In this document: positions 932 through 58,487 of the stretch, piece after piece | Position numbering within the stretch: the first letter of the stretch is position 1 | Layout: each line of letters opens with the position of its first letter | Source: Amphirosellinia nigrospora | Taxonomy: Eukaryota > Ascomycota > Sordariomycetes > Xylariales > Xylariaceae | Direction: 5' to 3' | Length of the DNA stretch: 64,000 nucleotides | Assembly: GCA_004123355.1 (NCBI GenBank) | Contig: SCHM01000003.1 | Span: 4,235,058 to 4,299,057 of the forward strand | The notes under the pieces: model-generated | Seen by the model: only the letters and a program-made list of their open reading frames with translations | Database searches by the model: none | Told to the model about the DNA's origin: nothing | Program-made: the position numbers and the translations under genes

Positions 932-1878
932 GATGTCTACTGCGAGGGAGGCCGAAAAAAGATAGGGAAGATGATGATCACCGGGAATCTCAGTCTTGTA
1001 AGGAAACGACTGCCTCGACTTCATGAATTAGGGTTCAACTTAACTGGTGCTTGGAACACATCAGCCTCTTCTGTACATAGCTGGCAAAAGGGGGAAGCTA
1101 AGGTAGGTTCTGAAAAAAAAAAACTCATGACTACTTGCTCTCTCGAGGTAGGCGCAAAGGTGCTCTGTAGTTCCCTCCATACATATTGTCAGGCTATAAT
1201 CAAGCTGTTCCTTCTACCTTCGATCACGCAAGTACTATACATAAGCAGATTACAAGAAGGCGCCCCTCCCTTCTATCACGGAATACGGCATCTACCTAAC
1301 TTGAGAATTACTGCCTGCAGGTGCGCCGATTATGTGCAAAGCGAGCATAACTACATGTGGGTAGGTATGAACTTAAAAGGTCCGGACAGATTCGTCAAGT
1401 GTTTTCTTCCTCAGCAAGCACCTACTTAGAGGCATTGTAATTAATCTCTCGCCTGAGAATCTCCTTACAGAACAGGTTCGGTTCACTCCTCAAGCAGCGT
1501 AAGAGCAATACGTACGAGTTTTATTAATCGAGATGGTCACACGCACAGTTTCTGGGCTTGTAAACAACTCTACTCAGCACTTGACAGTGTGGTGATACTT
1601 ATTGAATGGCTTTCATGTCGTTGTGTCTGTTCAGAGCTGTGTCCCCGCTCCCGGTCACTTGACCTACCTACTCTGTTAGTGTAGCACCTTGGTGAGGTAG
1701 CTGGTGCAGGATCTGGTTGCATCGCGTCTTGGCAGTTACCTACACTATGCAATATTATGTATTATGCGTGGCTTCTTTCAGGGCCCGGGTTCGTCATAGG
1801 AATCGGTTCGTGGAAAGGAAGGCCAGACATGGCCACGCCAAGATGTCAGCTGTATACCTTACTTACATAGTAGGGTTA
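932..1878. other. Intergenic, nothing recognised
   Basis: This stretch carries only an open frame at 920-1429 that overlaps the 5' end of the hypothetical gene on the other strand and resembles no family. No RNA gene or repeat was seen. Confidence 0.5.
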
Positions 1879-2333
1879 GGGTAGTCCATAGGGACAAAGA
1901 GGACAAAAGTCGGACTAGCACCTAACAAACTCCTTGCCAAGGGATTTTAGGTAGAATTCACAGTGCCTGATATATTATTAAGTATATGTTTTTTTATATA
2001 GTCCTCTTATTTTATACGCCGACAGTACATACAAACCTCCATATACCTACAAACACACACCTACAAACACACACCTATAAACACACACCTACAAACACAT
2101 ACCTACAAACATACACACAAACCTCTACATACCTACAAACACACGCGCAAACGTTAATAAACCTACGTATATAAAGATCTATTAACCTAGCCCTACGTAA
2201 ACCTTCTACATACTAAAAAAAAACCTAATATATATATTTAATAATACTTCAAGCACTATAAAATCCCTTAGCAAAAAATCTGCCAGGTGCCACTCCGACT
2301 TTTATCCTCTTAGTCCCTACCTATAGACCACCG
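1879..2333. mobile_element. MITE-like element with ~75-bp TIRs and TA target sites
   Basis: Positions 1879-1953 and 2258-2333 are imperfect inverted repeats: left GGGTAGTCCATAGGGAC, right (reverse complement) CGGTGGTCTATAGG followed by TAGGGAC. They stay alignable through AGTCGGA and on to AAGGGATTTTA. Both ends abut TA (1877-1878 and 2334-2335), as expected for Tc1/mariner/pogo-type insertion. The roughly 300-bp interior is AT-rich with no transposase, and contains an array of CCTACAAACACACA-like units (about 2035-2165). Most arm differences are transitions, as repeat-induced point mutation would leave. The element is non-autonomous; its family is not assigned. Confidence 0.7.
2028..2165. 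repeat. Degenerate minisatellite (ACAAACACACACCT units)
   Basis: Tandem, slightly varied copies of a 10-16 base A/C-rich unit (acctacaaacacac) fill the centre of the MITE-like element. An open frame through it translates to low-complexity Thr/His/Leu and is not a gene. Confidence 0.75.
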
Positions 2334-2547
2334 TAAGGGAGGTACCTACCTAGTCTAGCCTGCGCTGCCAGGAGTAGGCTACCCGAGGGTCAGCCCCACT
2401 TAAAAACTAACCAACAAAAAACACATCGACCAAGGTCACAGCGTCAAGATAGACCATTTCAAGCCGACTTGGAACCACGAGAGTCCGGCCGACATATATC
2501 GTCTACCGCCTCCCGCCCTAGCCCGGTCAATCGGCTTCGACAATACG

Positions 2548-24688: not shown

Positions 24689-26817
24689 ATGCCTGCATCA
24701 AGTCCCACCTCTACATCCAGTCACATGAGTGAGGGAATCGTCAAAACATACAAACGCCGCCCTCGCAAGCCGATAAGTTGCGAGCCTTGCCGGCATTCTA
24801 AGTTGCGGTGCGATCGGCAGAAACCCTGCGTGTCTTGCGTTAGGCGAAAATGTGCCGACTCATGCGTGTATGAGCGGCCACCTGTATCCCGGACCGGAGA
24901 GCCGCGAGCGCGTCCGGAGCTCGAGTCACGACCGGAGCCCGCCTCTGCGCCGTGTCAGCCAGGGTTAGAGCACAGTGCCATCGGGGTATCCAGGCGACAT
25001 CTGCAGCTCAAGGTCTACCGGACATAACTGCGGCGCCGAAAGAAAGGGGGCCTGACCCAGCAGATGTCGCTCTTCCAGACCTTCGAGCCCGGCATGCCCT
25101 CACTCACGAACGCTGGGAAGAAGTGTTGCAGAGGCCAATGAACCCAAATGAGCCATCGGCCTTCGCGCCCGACGATACGGCATCCCGCCCCTGGCATCTG
25201 TTTTCCGTTTCCTTCGGAGCCCCAGCTTGGCATGAATGATCTCTTAGCAATGCCCTCCGCTTCAGCATGCGACTATCCTATCCGGTTCTTCATGTATATG
25301 GCACCATACTTCCCTATTTTGCACGGCCCAACATTTCAAAAGGAGTATGCCACTTTCGTCGCGAACCCCTCCGCAGTTGACTTGTCGTGGTTAGCTGTGC
25401 TCTTCATGTTACTATCCATCGTCTTCATACTCTCGATTACGACGATGTTCTACCGATTGATATCAAGCCTAACACATCTCCGCTGCAGGATTCAAGCAAA
25501 CCTACCCGGCGATATCGCGAAGCGGCTATGACGTGTCTGTCGAAAGCTCAGTTCCTGACAAGATACCAGCTGAGCACACTACAGGCCTTGTTGTTCGTTG
25601 TCTACGAGATCTGTCATGAGGAGGGTGTTGAGCACGGTTGGACGCTTCTGGGTGTCGCGTTGAACATCAGCATCGCGCTGCATTGCAACGATGAAGCTGC
25701 CCCCCCTGGCTGTAAGGAATTATCGCACTAATTTCCTCTTCTCTCCTTGCAAATTTTAGAGTAAATGGCTCCTTTCGACCCCAGGTTGTGCCGAGAAGCT
25801 TTCGAAACTTATTCCCAAATCATGCTAAAATAGTAATAACTGACTTTGAGTATTCTTCTAGTGGCTCGCATCGAGATCGAGCGCCGACGGCGTTGCTGGG
25901 CAGGCCTTCTCAGCTTATATGCCTATCAAATGGTCTCCTACCCAGGTGTTGATATGTTGTTTCTAACCAATGTCACGGCAACAATGCCCGCTGACGTGAA
26001 TGATGACGACATACGCGAAAATTCAATATCGCAGCCTTCCGGGAGACTTACGCAAATGTCCATAATGATGTTTAAGATTCGTTTATTCCAGCTGTCGAGC
26101 AGAATATGCCGCCATCTGAAAGGACCAAACAAGTTCGACGAAAAGACGCGTGATCTGTTCCACGCCGAAATAACAGCGGAGCGGCGCCAATGGGATGCTG
26201 CGCTCCTTGTTGATGGTGACGAGGAACTACCCAGCGTTTTAGACTTCTCAAGCTTTGCACATTGGTCTTTGCAATTCCACGGCCACCACCTTTACCTGCT
26301 AATCCACCAGCCTTTTTGTCGGCCGCGTTCCAATTCGACTTGCTTTCGTCAACAGTCTAGGGCGCAGTGCATCGCTTCCGGTGCGGCTCTCTTGAAAATA
26401 CATCAGCGATACTGGGAGATTCCTCGGATACGGCCCTGTCGTTGGACGTTACATGGTTTACATAGCTTTTATGCTATACATGGCGCGGTGGCGTTAGCAT
26501 CATGTCTTCTGGAGGAAGAAGAGTCTCATGTTTCGGCCTCGCTGCAGTACAGAGACACCTTTATTACAGCGGTCAACCGTTTCGGGAAGCTACAACAGCG
26601 CAGCCCGATCAGCAGGAAAGCTTATCCTATTCTTTCTCAATTACAGTAGGTGAAAAGTTACCATGGAGTCTGATTAGTAAATTTGAATGACTGAAGAGCA
26701 TACAGAAACCTCCTATTCCCAGAGCAACATAAGTGGCCCAACCCGGCAAGCTCTACATTTCTAGAAACATTTGATACCTGGGTAGACAACCTCCAGTGGT
26801 TTAACCAGACACTATAG
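24689..26817 (+). CDS. Zn(II)2Cys6 transcription factor
   Basis: Residues 31-59 form a binuclear zinc cluster: C31-x2-C34-x6-C41-x5-C47-x2-C50-x8-C59, preceded by the basic KRRPRK. A weakly conserved linker follows, then the fungal-specific regulatory domain: IRFFMYMAPYFPILHGPTFQ (about 25280), WTLLGVALNISIALHC (about 25650) and, after an intron ending at 25861, IERRRRCWAGLLSLYAYQ. The C-terminus (NLLFPEQHKWPNP ... DTWVDNLQWFNQT) follows intron 26646-26705 and stops at 26817. One-base corrections are needed near 25010, 25230 and 25440. The MFS exporter follows in the same orientation 865 bp downstream, so it may be a pathway-specific regulator of that gene; this is inference. Confidence 0.82.
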
Positions 26818-56016: not shown

Positions 56017-58487
56017 TCATACGTTAAGCGCGGCGTCGTGTGTGTCTCTGTATCCTCGGATCATGAAAGGGTCGGTCCAGTCAACCTTGCCGTCTAGCTC
56101 GGGGTATGCGAAATAACCGTCCCGCGACCGAGATATAAACCAGTCCATGTCGGCTCTGTTGAATCCTATTAGATGAGGATAACTTCCATCCAATAAGTGC
56201 TGTATGGTATCGCGGAAATCTTCCGGGGTTGAGTCTCTAGCGAAAATTACAAGGCGCTCACAAATGCTAGCCCACTTCCAGATATGCTCAGCGTCAAATG
56301 TGCCCTGCATTAATCTAAACTCTAGCGTTTGTGTCGTCTCAAAGCGAGAGAGTGGCCGAGACCGTTTGTTTCCGTGAATTCGCCAACGGACGCAGCCCTG
56401 GCTTAGATTCCCAGAACCCATGGCGGCATTGAGGTCACTTATCGCCGCGTATTGCCAAATGTTACTGAAGAATTGAAGTAGCTTAGGGCGCTGTATAGGG
56501 GGAACATACCTCTGCATTTGGGCTTGGTACGCCTTCATCAATGGTCCCGTAGTCCTGGATAGATATTGAGTATTCCCACTCATCGTAAACACGCAACTGG
56601 CTAAACGGCACGTAGTAGCCATTGGCGAACACCAGACATTGCTAATACGATCCTTCCGATGAAGTTGATACATGCCCGGCTCCATTAGGTGCCAGAGAGT
56701 TGCGATTTTTTTCAGGTGTAGTAGCGTCCAGCCCGCCTGCTGGCCAATATGAATGTGCACGCCCGTCTTTACCTCTGCCATTGGCTTATGGATTCTCAAC
56801 TCTTCCCTGAGCGTCGTACAGGCTGTCCTCACTACAACACTTGAAGTTAGTTATCTCTATCGAAGCTATAATTTGGAGGTTCTTTGGGAGTTCTTTGTTT
56901 GAAAAAGGACATTCCAGGCCTTGAAGTTTGGCAAAACAAAAGAAAATTAGTTTTAAGAATTACTCACGTGCTTGCCGCGTTAGCGGGTTGTCGTAATCTA
57001 GAATGGGAGATACGACTTCAGCGCCGAACCACTTGTACAAATCTGGCGGATCAGCCCACGTAGCTACGGAGTTTGGGATGAAGGGCACGCTGCCGTGCGG
57101 CACTATAATGCTCGAAGTTAGTTACTGCTATTTAAGATGTGAAGTAGGAGGGTTTCGGAAGCTTCTGGGCATCATCGCGTCCCAAAAAGGAAACATTGTA
57201 CTCTGACAATTGCTGAAACGGGAAGAAAATAGTTCCGAGAATTACGCACCTAAGTAGTCATCGGAATCTTGGAAAGGGTCTTGGATTGAGATATCGTCTG
57301 TGCACGACCAGGCGGCATATGTCTTGCTTGCTCCAGGTAGGGGTACTGAAATTGGATCCCGATAATCTTCGCTTGGGGAATAATGCTTCCGTTTTCTTGC
57401 CCTAACAAGTGAGCTTACTGACGCGTACCATTGTTCTACTACCATTTTTCGGCCTGAGGTGGTGGATAGACCCTGTATCATGAAAAAGAGGTTGTCTCGG
57501 CATTGCTTTATAACGTCCTCAGTAGTCAAATACAATTCTATATTGTTGTTCGCGTGGTATTCGACGAACTGGCCTTGTAGAACCTTGACAGCCTCGTTGA
57601 CATTGTAATCATCGCTTTCAACCCCACTATATTATAGTTAGTAGATATTTTGAGCACTGTCTTTAGCTTGCTGATTCTTTAAGGGGCTTGTAGATAGAAC
57701 TTAGTTTGTACTTACTTCCACTGGTACTCTCCAACCCAGTTCAATACGACTTGGTCATTCTGATTGGGATTTTCATATTCTAAGCTGTCCCACATTTCAA
57801 AGTTCTCTCCCTGTACGGCATCCCCTATCGTGAGAGTTAGTGATCCGGTATGGTAGCAAACACCAGTATGGTAGCAAACACCGGTTTGAAGAGAATAAAG
57901 GATGGATAATAAACGCCTTAGACTTACACCAGGTTTCGTCCGTTTTGTGAGCATAAAGACCGCCCGCAAGAAGCTGGTCAATAATCTAGCACTGGAGTCA
58001 GTCATCTCCACTCGTGGTAATAATTACCGAGGGTCTTGAGAGTTTCTAAGAGTTAAAAAAGTAAAATTTGTCGTAATTTGTCGTCTCTAAAACATGTAAA
58101 AAAGGGGAATAAAGGAATTTAGTAACTAACCTTATTTCTCACAGTATATTTGTAAGAAAGGGAATTGTGGTCTTTGTTGATAAGGCGATCTGACAGCCAA
58201 CGTCCGTCATTTGGGTGCGGATCCGGAAAGTTTTCTTGAGCCCTAGCAACAGCGACTAAAAGCTCAAACTCGAACCCCATCGTTGTTGCATTGGGGCCGG
58301 CCTCTGCAGGTGGATTATCGATATCTTGCGCTAATATTTCTTGCCATCCGGTGAAAGGATCATCTCCGTCGTCCTCATCAGAGTCCTCCTCAGATAGTTG
58401 TCCAAAAGATTCGTCTACTTCTTCCTGTTGCTCTTGGCCCTGCGTACTACTGATCTCACTAACAGTGGTGTACTCAACACCGTCCAT
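56017..58487 (-). CDS. Amidoligase-family (COOH-NH2 ligase fold) protein
   Basis: Predicted to join a carboxylate to an amine at the expense of ATP, like other members of the Amidoligase_2 superfamily; the fungal substrate is unknown. Exons 58487-58131, 57985-57928, 57824-57716, 57626-57250, 57102-56968 and 56831-56017 stay in phase throughout and give about 616 residues; an extra 18-nt exon near 58040 is possible. An acidic, disordered N-terminus precedes MGFEFELLVAV, the family's GxExE strand. Then GLYAHKTDETW, WFGAEVVSPILDY (about residue 330), GVHIHIGQQAGWTLL (HxHxG-like metal or nucleotide site) and QTLEFRLMQGTFDAEHIWKW, the TLEFR/GT signature. The ATG at 58487 is closely preceded by an in-frame stop. 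No frameshift is needed. Introns 4 and 5 look like sister copies (see findings). Confidence 0.85.
56832..56967 (-). repeat. Intron 5 of the amidoligase gene, sister of intron 4
   Basis: A 136-bp intron beginning GTGAGTAATTCTTAAAACTA and ending GATAACTAACTTCAAGTGTT followed by GTAG. It matches intron 4 (57103-57249) at both ends, with a more diverged centre. The branch site ACTAAC is shared. Confidence 0.7.
57103..57249 (-). repeat. Intron 4 of the amidoligase gene, sister of intron 5
   Basis: A 147-bp intron beginning GTGCGTAATTCTCGGAACTA and ending AGTAACTAACTTCGAGCATT followed by ATAG. Its similarity to the next intron over roughly 25-30 bases at each end is far beyond the usual splice consensus. 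The 135-nt exon between them does not resemble its neighbours, so only the introns appear copied. Confidence 0.7.
57848..57881. repeat. Short tandem duplication inside intron 2 of the amidoligase gene
   Basis: The 17-base unit GTATGGTAGCAAACACC is present twice in direct tandem, differing at most at the unit edge. It lies within intron 57825-57927 and does not affect coding. Confidence 0.75.

Follow-up and report, generated by a model that had tools for sequence, protein, structure and literature searches.

The window, that is, the whole stretch of 64 kb from Amphirosellinia nigrospora that was analysed, carries an amidoligase-like gene on its minus strand. The part of this gene considered here comprises two predicted introns, numbered 4 and 5, and the coding exons bordering them, which are given in gene order:

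57250-57626, minus strand: coding exon 5' of intron 4; its upstream end was judged by eye
57103-57249, minus strand: intron 4, 147 bp, GTGCGTAATTCTCGG...ATTATAG; phase 1 (G|TG); full-length family copy of the GTnC subfamily
56968-57102, minus strand: coding exon of 135 nt separating introns 4 and 5; frame open over both junctions
56832-56967, minus strand: intron 5, 136 bp, GTGAGTAATTCTTAA...TGTTGTAG; phase 1 (C|TG); GTnA-like at several columns
56017-56831, minus strand: terminal coding exon 3' of intron 5; ends with the stop codon

The subfamilies GTnC and GTnA are groups of family copies distinguished by column 4. Joined without introns 4 and 5, the three exons form a single open frame up to the stop codon, and the spliced product of 441 aa matches the Pfam family PF12224 (Amidoligase_2; E 2.5e-12). 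The coordinates and lengths of both introns and the 135-nt exon had been given correctly in an earlier note on this DNA, in gene order on the minus strand. Further upstream in the amidoligase-like gene, two 18-nt units are arranged head-to-tail at 57845-57880 (94% alike) in a presumably intronic part, and positions 57990-58048 (minus strand) show a marginal match to positions 83-141 of the family profile described below (E 0.017), which is perhaps a decayed additional copy. No Rfam family was matched in the window at gathering scores.

The earlier note had stated that introns 4 and 5 share their first and last bases far beyond the splice consensus. The shared ends are confirmed, and in the 5' part the likeness extends well beyond the donor. 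A 5'-end pattern derived from both introns (≤3 mismatches) was found at these two places only within the 64 kb, and two or more matches occurred in 8 of 100 shuffled controls. The corresponding 3'-end pattern (≤3 mismatches) detected both introns and one further place with three mismatches, three or more matches being obtained in none of 100 shuffles. By itself, however, the shared 3' end is the weaker evidence, since its AACTAAC and TAG represent branch point and acceptor.

A search profile that was derived from 78 other copies of the family and excluded both window introns recovered intron 4 with E 5.6e-37 and intron 5 with E 3.5e-14. Both matches cover profile positions 1-147, and intron 5 is thereby recognised as a diverged yet full-length copy. 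The reversed window gave no match to the 78-copy profile. Besides introns 4 and 5, the profile search revealed one further family copy in the window:

25712-25861, plus strand: third family copy, 150 bp; profile match at 25712-25854 (E 4.7e-14), acceptor end placed by eye

The exon following this copy starts with TG. Some 0.7 kb further upstream, this strand encodes a Zn(2)-Cys(6) domain (E 8.8e-6); the exons adjoining the copy have no Pfam match, and together with the domain they presumably form one gene.

The proposal that the two introns are introner-like is borne out by many more copies in the genome, located in unrelated genes where this was tested. Searches with long patterns yielded 93, 152, 107 and 108 genome matches, compared to 0, 0, 0 and 0 for the reversed patterns. 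A shorter, 20-nt 5' pattern derived from both window introns (≤3 mismatches) matched 494 places versus 304 in the reversed control, so that only its near matches are informative; these have a clear common consensus. A genome BLAST search with one window intron as query (56832-56978, including 11 exon bases) detected only the query itself, which made the patterns necessary. With one consensus-like copy as query, 40 scored matches were obtained among 104 candidates, and 35 of the 40 span the whole element (the query itself included in both counts). The copy number was estimated from one list per element end, containing 100 of 108 and 100 of 107 matches, respectively. The 32 elements common to both lists correspond to about 312 copies, a figure that is a lower bound because both lists pick up the consensus-like copies. 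The search for further copies recommended in the earlier note thus points to a family of at least about 310 members.

The set of model matches was assembled from 105 of 116 hits, the 11 weakest being left out, and comprised 101 sequences after removal of identical ones. The family consensus is about 147 nt long and conserved in its interior as well, and the median copy measures about 146 bp. Past the middle of the element, consensus positions 84-93 form a 10-nt palindrome, AGAAGCTTCT. Eight exon pieces beside copies, drawn from 14, were compared with Pfam. Four scored above the cut-off, one below it (GDSL lipase) and three were without match; the four families above the cut-off are unrelated to each other (NAD_binding_4/PP-binding, phosphomannose isomerase, short-chain dehydrogenase and alpha/beta hydrolase).

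All 61 full-length model matches begin with GT and end with AG, in a selected set obtained by a search that itself favours GT...AG. When the copy was removed and 90 nt of flank were joined from each side, the frame was open in 49 of 72 copies in the sense direction. In the controls with the same 72 copies it was open in 22 antisense, in one unspliced, in 31 after removal of one extra base at the junction and in 27 after removal of two; the random open-frame rate in this test is 0.247. As the spliced flanks were closed in 23 of the 72 copies, some copies may lie outside coding exons. Most of the tested copies lie in sense in a coding context, and judging from the sequences they are presumably spliced out like ordinary introns.

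A scan for extra copies covered 79 of 95 loci, the other 16 being duplicate places already contained in the set or in the window. Extra copies inside the 3-kb loci have the same strand as the anchor copy in 19 of 19 cases (70 loci, identical rows removed). Opposite-strand copies about 1.3 kb apart in the overlapping loci L031 and L066 were lost from this count by the removal of identical rows. Several loci have more than one copy (two to four) on a single strand; neighbouring copies in one gene are therefore not unusual in this family. At L006, four full-length copies with weaker matches in between are located within about 1.06 kb (1375-2431, minus strand), and L019 has four same-strand copies (model matches of at least 30 bits) as well as one weaker match.

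With respect to the mode of insertion, three amidoligase paralogues (L032, L034 and L035; 21-32% identity) are contiguous, gap-free and intron-less at the site of intron 5, and L032 also lacks an intron at the site of intron 4. In the paralogue L034 (2535-2625; about 1569-1685), part of the family element is matched (E 7e-9) at a place that holds no copy in the window gene, and an intron of unrelated sequence lies close to the position of intron 4. Furthermore, the spliced phosphomannose isomerase (L015, codon A|TG) and the spliced alpha/beta hydrolase (L011) align to solved relatives without a gap at the junction. The gap-free junctions in the paralogues and in both enzymes indicate that insertion was seamless in the genes checked.

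A target-site duplication was not detected: per-copy matches between the two junctions equal the column expectation at shifts from -2 to +2 (61 copies). We also considered a shifted YAGTG repeat common to both junctions as a duplication, for which the matches are as expected from the column make-up, and an element that carries one exonic codon (A + TG), which is ruled out in three genes by the gap-free junction alignments.

The exon flanks of the family copies favour YA|TG. In the 100 flanks compared, position -1 is A in 56 (p 2e-11) and position +1 is T in 71 (p 4e-24) and G in merely six. At position -2, C (44/100) and T (27/100) are frequent, and position +2 is G in 47 of 100. No preference of the AG/GY type was seen, with AG at positions -2 and -1 in 3 of 100 copies and G at +1 in 6 of 100. 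The match to CA|TG averages 2.60 of 4 in the 30 best-scoring copies and 1.94 of 4 in the remaining 31 (p 0.008). This difference agrees with a preference at insertion that is gradually lost, rather than with a requirement of splicing. Ordinary introns used as a control showed no YA|TG bias; with 30 candidates against 8-17 decoys, or 15 against 0-4 under stricter selection, this is a poor set that carries little weight.

Near the ends of the element, the bases at positions 7-16 complement those at -14 to -5 in register, with 7.53 of 10 possible pairs on average (58 copies) compared to at most 5.24 in slid registers. The corresponding arms of the two window introns are:

57234-57243, minus strand: 5' arm of intron 4, AATTCTCGGA; duplex z -0.99
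57107-57116, minus strand: 3' arm of intron 4, TTCGAGCATT; sits between branch point and acceptor
56952-56961, minus strand: 5' arm position of intron 5, AATTCTTAAA; pairing mostly gone, duplex z +0.75
56836-56845, minus strand: 3' arm position of intron 5, TTCAAGTGTT

L083 and L057 have strong end duplexes (z -5.5 and -5.3, respectively); the average is weak (mean z -0.88, 57 copies), better-scoring copies having the more stable duplex (score versus energy, r -0.40). The earlier note had named predicted RNA hairpin formation as a check. Only a short stem near the ends is seen repeatedly in the family, whereas folds of whole introns are no better than those of shuffled sequences (z -2.05 to +1.97 in 12 sequences; +0.90 and +1.97 for the two window introns) and RNAalifold returned no consensus pairs in 20 copies.

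The stem shows no covariation either, since the pairing of arms from the same copy (7.53) equals that of shuffled arms (7.55, p 0.65) and duplexes across copies are as stable as own ones (-7.75 versus -7.61). What look like compensatory changes in intron 5 thus do not count as evidence. The strongest couplings between columns mostly track the two subfamilies. Given the missing covariation, the weak mean z and the lack of a consensus fold, any part played by the stem in copying is conjectural. The stem may be a trait of the copying element which is not kept after insertion.

The introner-like elements of Dothideomycetes (Fulvia fulva, Dothistroma, Zymoseptoria) are presented in the accessible parts of PMC4457414 as multi-copy spliceosomal introns in unrelated genes that fall into several families, with two adjacent copies in each of four genes and 98-99% identity in active families. 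An AG/GY insertion preference of these elements is attributed to van der Burgt in the accessible text of PMC8469720. So far as these texts describe them, the present family resembles the Dothideomycetes elements in its occurrence in many unrelated genes, in its subfamilies and in the two adjacent copies in one gene. Unlike those elements, it has YA|TG instead of AG/GY flanks and no exceptional whole-intron RNA fold (12 copies), and, in contrast to the active families, its most alike pair among 80 sampled copies reaches 93.7%.

A second group for comparison are the sister stwintrons and cropped sister introns of Hypoxylaceae and Xylariaceae, for which the accessible parts of PMC8469720 and PMC12403724 report terminal symmetry and near-terminal 10-nt repeats (NTIRE-10). 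The same parts describe the stwintrons and cropped introns of Xylariales as seamless and without nucleotide bias in the bordering exons, and PMC8469720 mentions a central palindrome in the cropped sister introns of Hypoxylon. On this basis the present family shares with the NTIRE-10 elements the inverted repeats of about 10 nt just after the donor and between branch point and acceptor, a 10-nt consensus palindrome, seamless insertion without target-site duplication, and a symmetry that is weaker in diverged copies. It differs from the NTIRE-10 elements, as they are described there, in the sequences of its arms and in the strong exon bias. Unlike the nested sister stwintrons ([D1,2]), the inspected copies are single introns, among which none was noticed to be nested.

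In a survey of 175 genomes, ascomycete introner families lack target-site duplications as well as terminal inverted repeats, according to the accessible text of PMC9860276. The present family agrees with introners at large in being an intron-generating repeat, and with those ascomycete families in the missing duplication, but differs from them in its short near-terminal inverted repeat. The missing duplication also distinguishes it from the DNA-transposon introners with terminal inverted repeats and target-site duplications. A 14-nt string from the 5' end of the element was not found among the open-access matches listed, and the family was not identified among the matches listed for introners and insertion preferences in open-access main texts (supplements excluded). 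As far as the published relatives are described in these texts, the family fits the known introner-like kind and is set apart by its preference for YA|TG and by a short repeat near its ends.

The family seems to be a fungal introner-like one whose spread was probably RNA-mediated. We consider it likely that introns 4 and 5 are separate insertions of one introner-like element of about 146 bp, which was copied through RNA and multiplied to hundreds of places. Such an element would be a spliceosomal intron that itself supplies the branch point and both splice sites. Each copy would insert in sense into a coding exon, at a YA|TG-like site and without duplicating target bases; codons would neither be added nor removed, as in the genes checked, and the copy would then be spliced as an ordinary intron. 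The two copies in the amidoligase gene would stem from separate branches of the family. Copying may proceed via the excised intron RNA, either by reverse splicing or by insertion of the intron RNA during break repair. The near-terminal stem may assist by holding the element ends together, and would decay once the copy needs splicing alone.

The near-palindromic site bias can be read as easily as a DNA-level target. We put forward, as a tentative and less probable reading, an introner family with near-terminal repeats and without duplication whose two-sided near-palindromic YA|TG rule means that the site is chosen by the exon sequence. Sites would then be neither AG/GY-like nor random as in the fungal relatives, and integration would possibly be blunt and at the DNA level, in a manner not known for introners.

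That the family is copied as DNA altogether appears unlikely. The element would have to be small and non-autonomous, possess imperfect terminal inverted repeats and insert into near-palindromic CA|TG without duplication, its genic copies on the sense strand persisting because they are spliced. Such an element agrees with the inverted repeats close to the two ends, which are strong in copies such as L083 and L057, and with the two-sided site bias, which reads as the palindrome C-A|T-G. The absence of a duplication at the shifts compared argues against it. The two target halves, moreover, show no clear coupling within copies (0.66 for the innermost pair versus 0.60 expected, 32 copies), and the coding context of the tested copies is biased towards sense, whereas DNA elements should leave intergenic and antisense copies, too.

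A local duplication within the gene, with intron 5 copied from intron 4 or the reverse, is highly improbable. The two introns are neighbours with equal phase and similar ends, and the earlier note had regarded them as sister copies that suggest local or recent gain. Neither claim is upheld by the comparison with the other copies. Introns 4 and 5 share 58% identity; intron 5 ranks 77th of 79 among the neighbours of intron 4, with 76 copies being closer, and intron 4 ranks 36th of 79 among those of intron 5. They also differ in the columns that characterise the subfamilies: intron 4 has the GTnC state also at columns 76, 78, 107 and 111, and intron 5 has the GTnA state at columns 73, 84 and 107 and other states elsewhere. 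The copy closest to intron 4 (locus L044, 80% identity) is located on another contig (C1, the window lying on C5), and sharing a locus scarcely raises the similarity of a pair (mean identity 0.692 in 17 same-locus pairs versus 0.661 in pairs from different loci).

Intron 4 groups with L044 in a tree built from 75 rows and intron 5 is placed elsewhere, eight of the 72 inner branches being well supported; a clade of introns 4 and 5 was, though, not rejected by the AU test (p 0.117), which speaks in favour of a sister pair. The identity, the ranks and the subfamily columns suggest that both introns entered the gene independently, neither being copied from the other.

That both are ordinary old introns, alike merely through splice-site and branch-point consensus, can practically be dismissed: AACTAAC and TAG at the shared 3' end are possible in any intron of this fungus, but the full-length profile matches obtained with the window introns excluded and the many genomic copies against none for reversed patterns each refute this explanation, and the likeness runs through the intron interior.

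The introner-like reading of introns 4 and 5 is right, and the reading as sisters arisen by local gain is unsupported. The origin of new spliceosomal introns is a long-standing open question. For fungal introners, the debate between reverse splicing and DNA insertion hinges on target-site duplications, terminal repeats and exon bias. The present family joins the absence of a duplication with short near-terminal repeats and a strong two-sided exon bias, which allows sharp tests, and its YA|TG site rule is the part that specialists would want to follow up. Its diverged copies show, furthermore, how introners may fade to ordinary introns.
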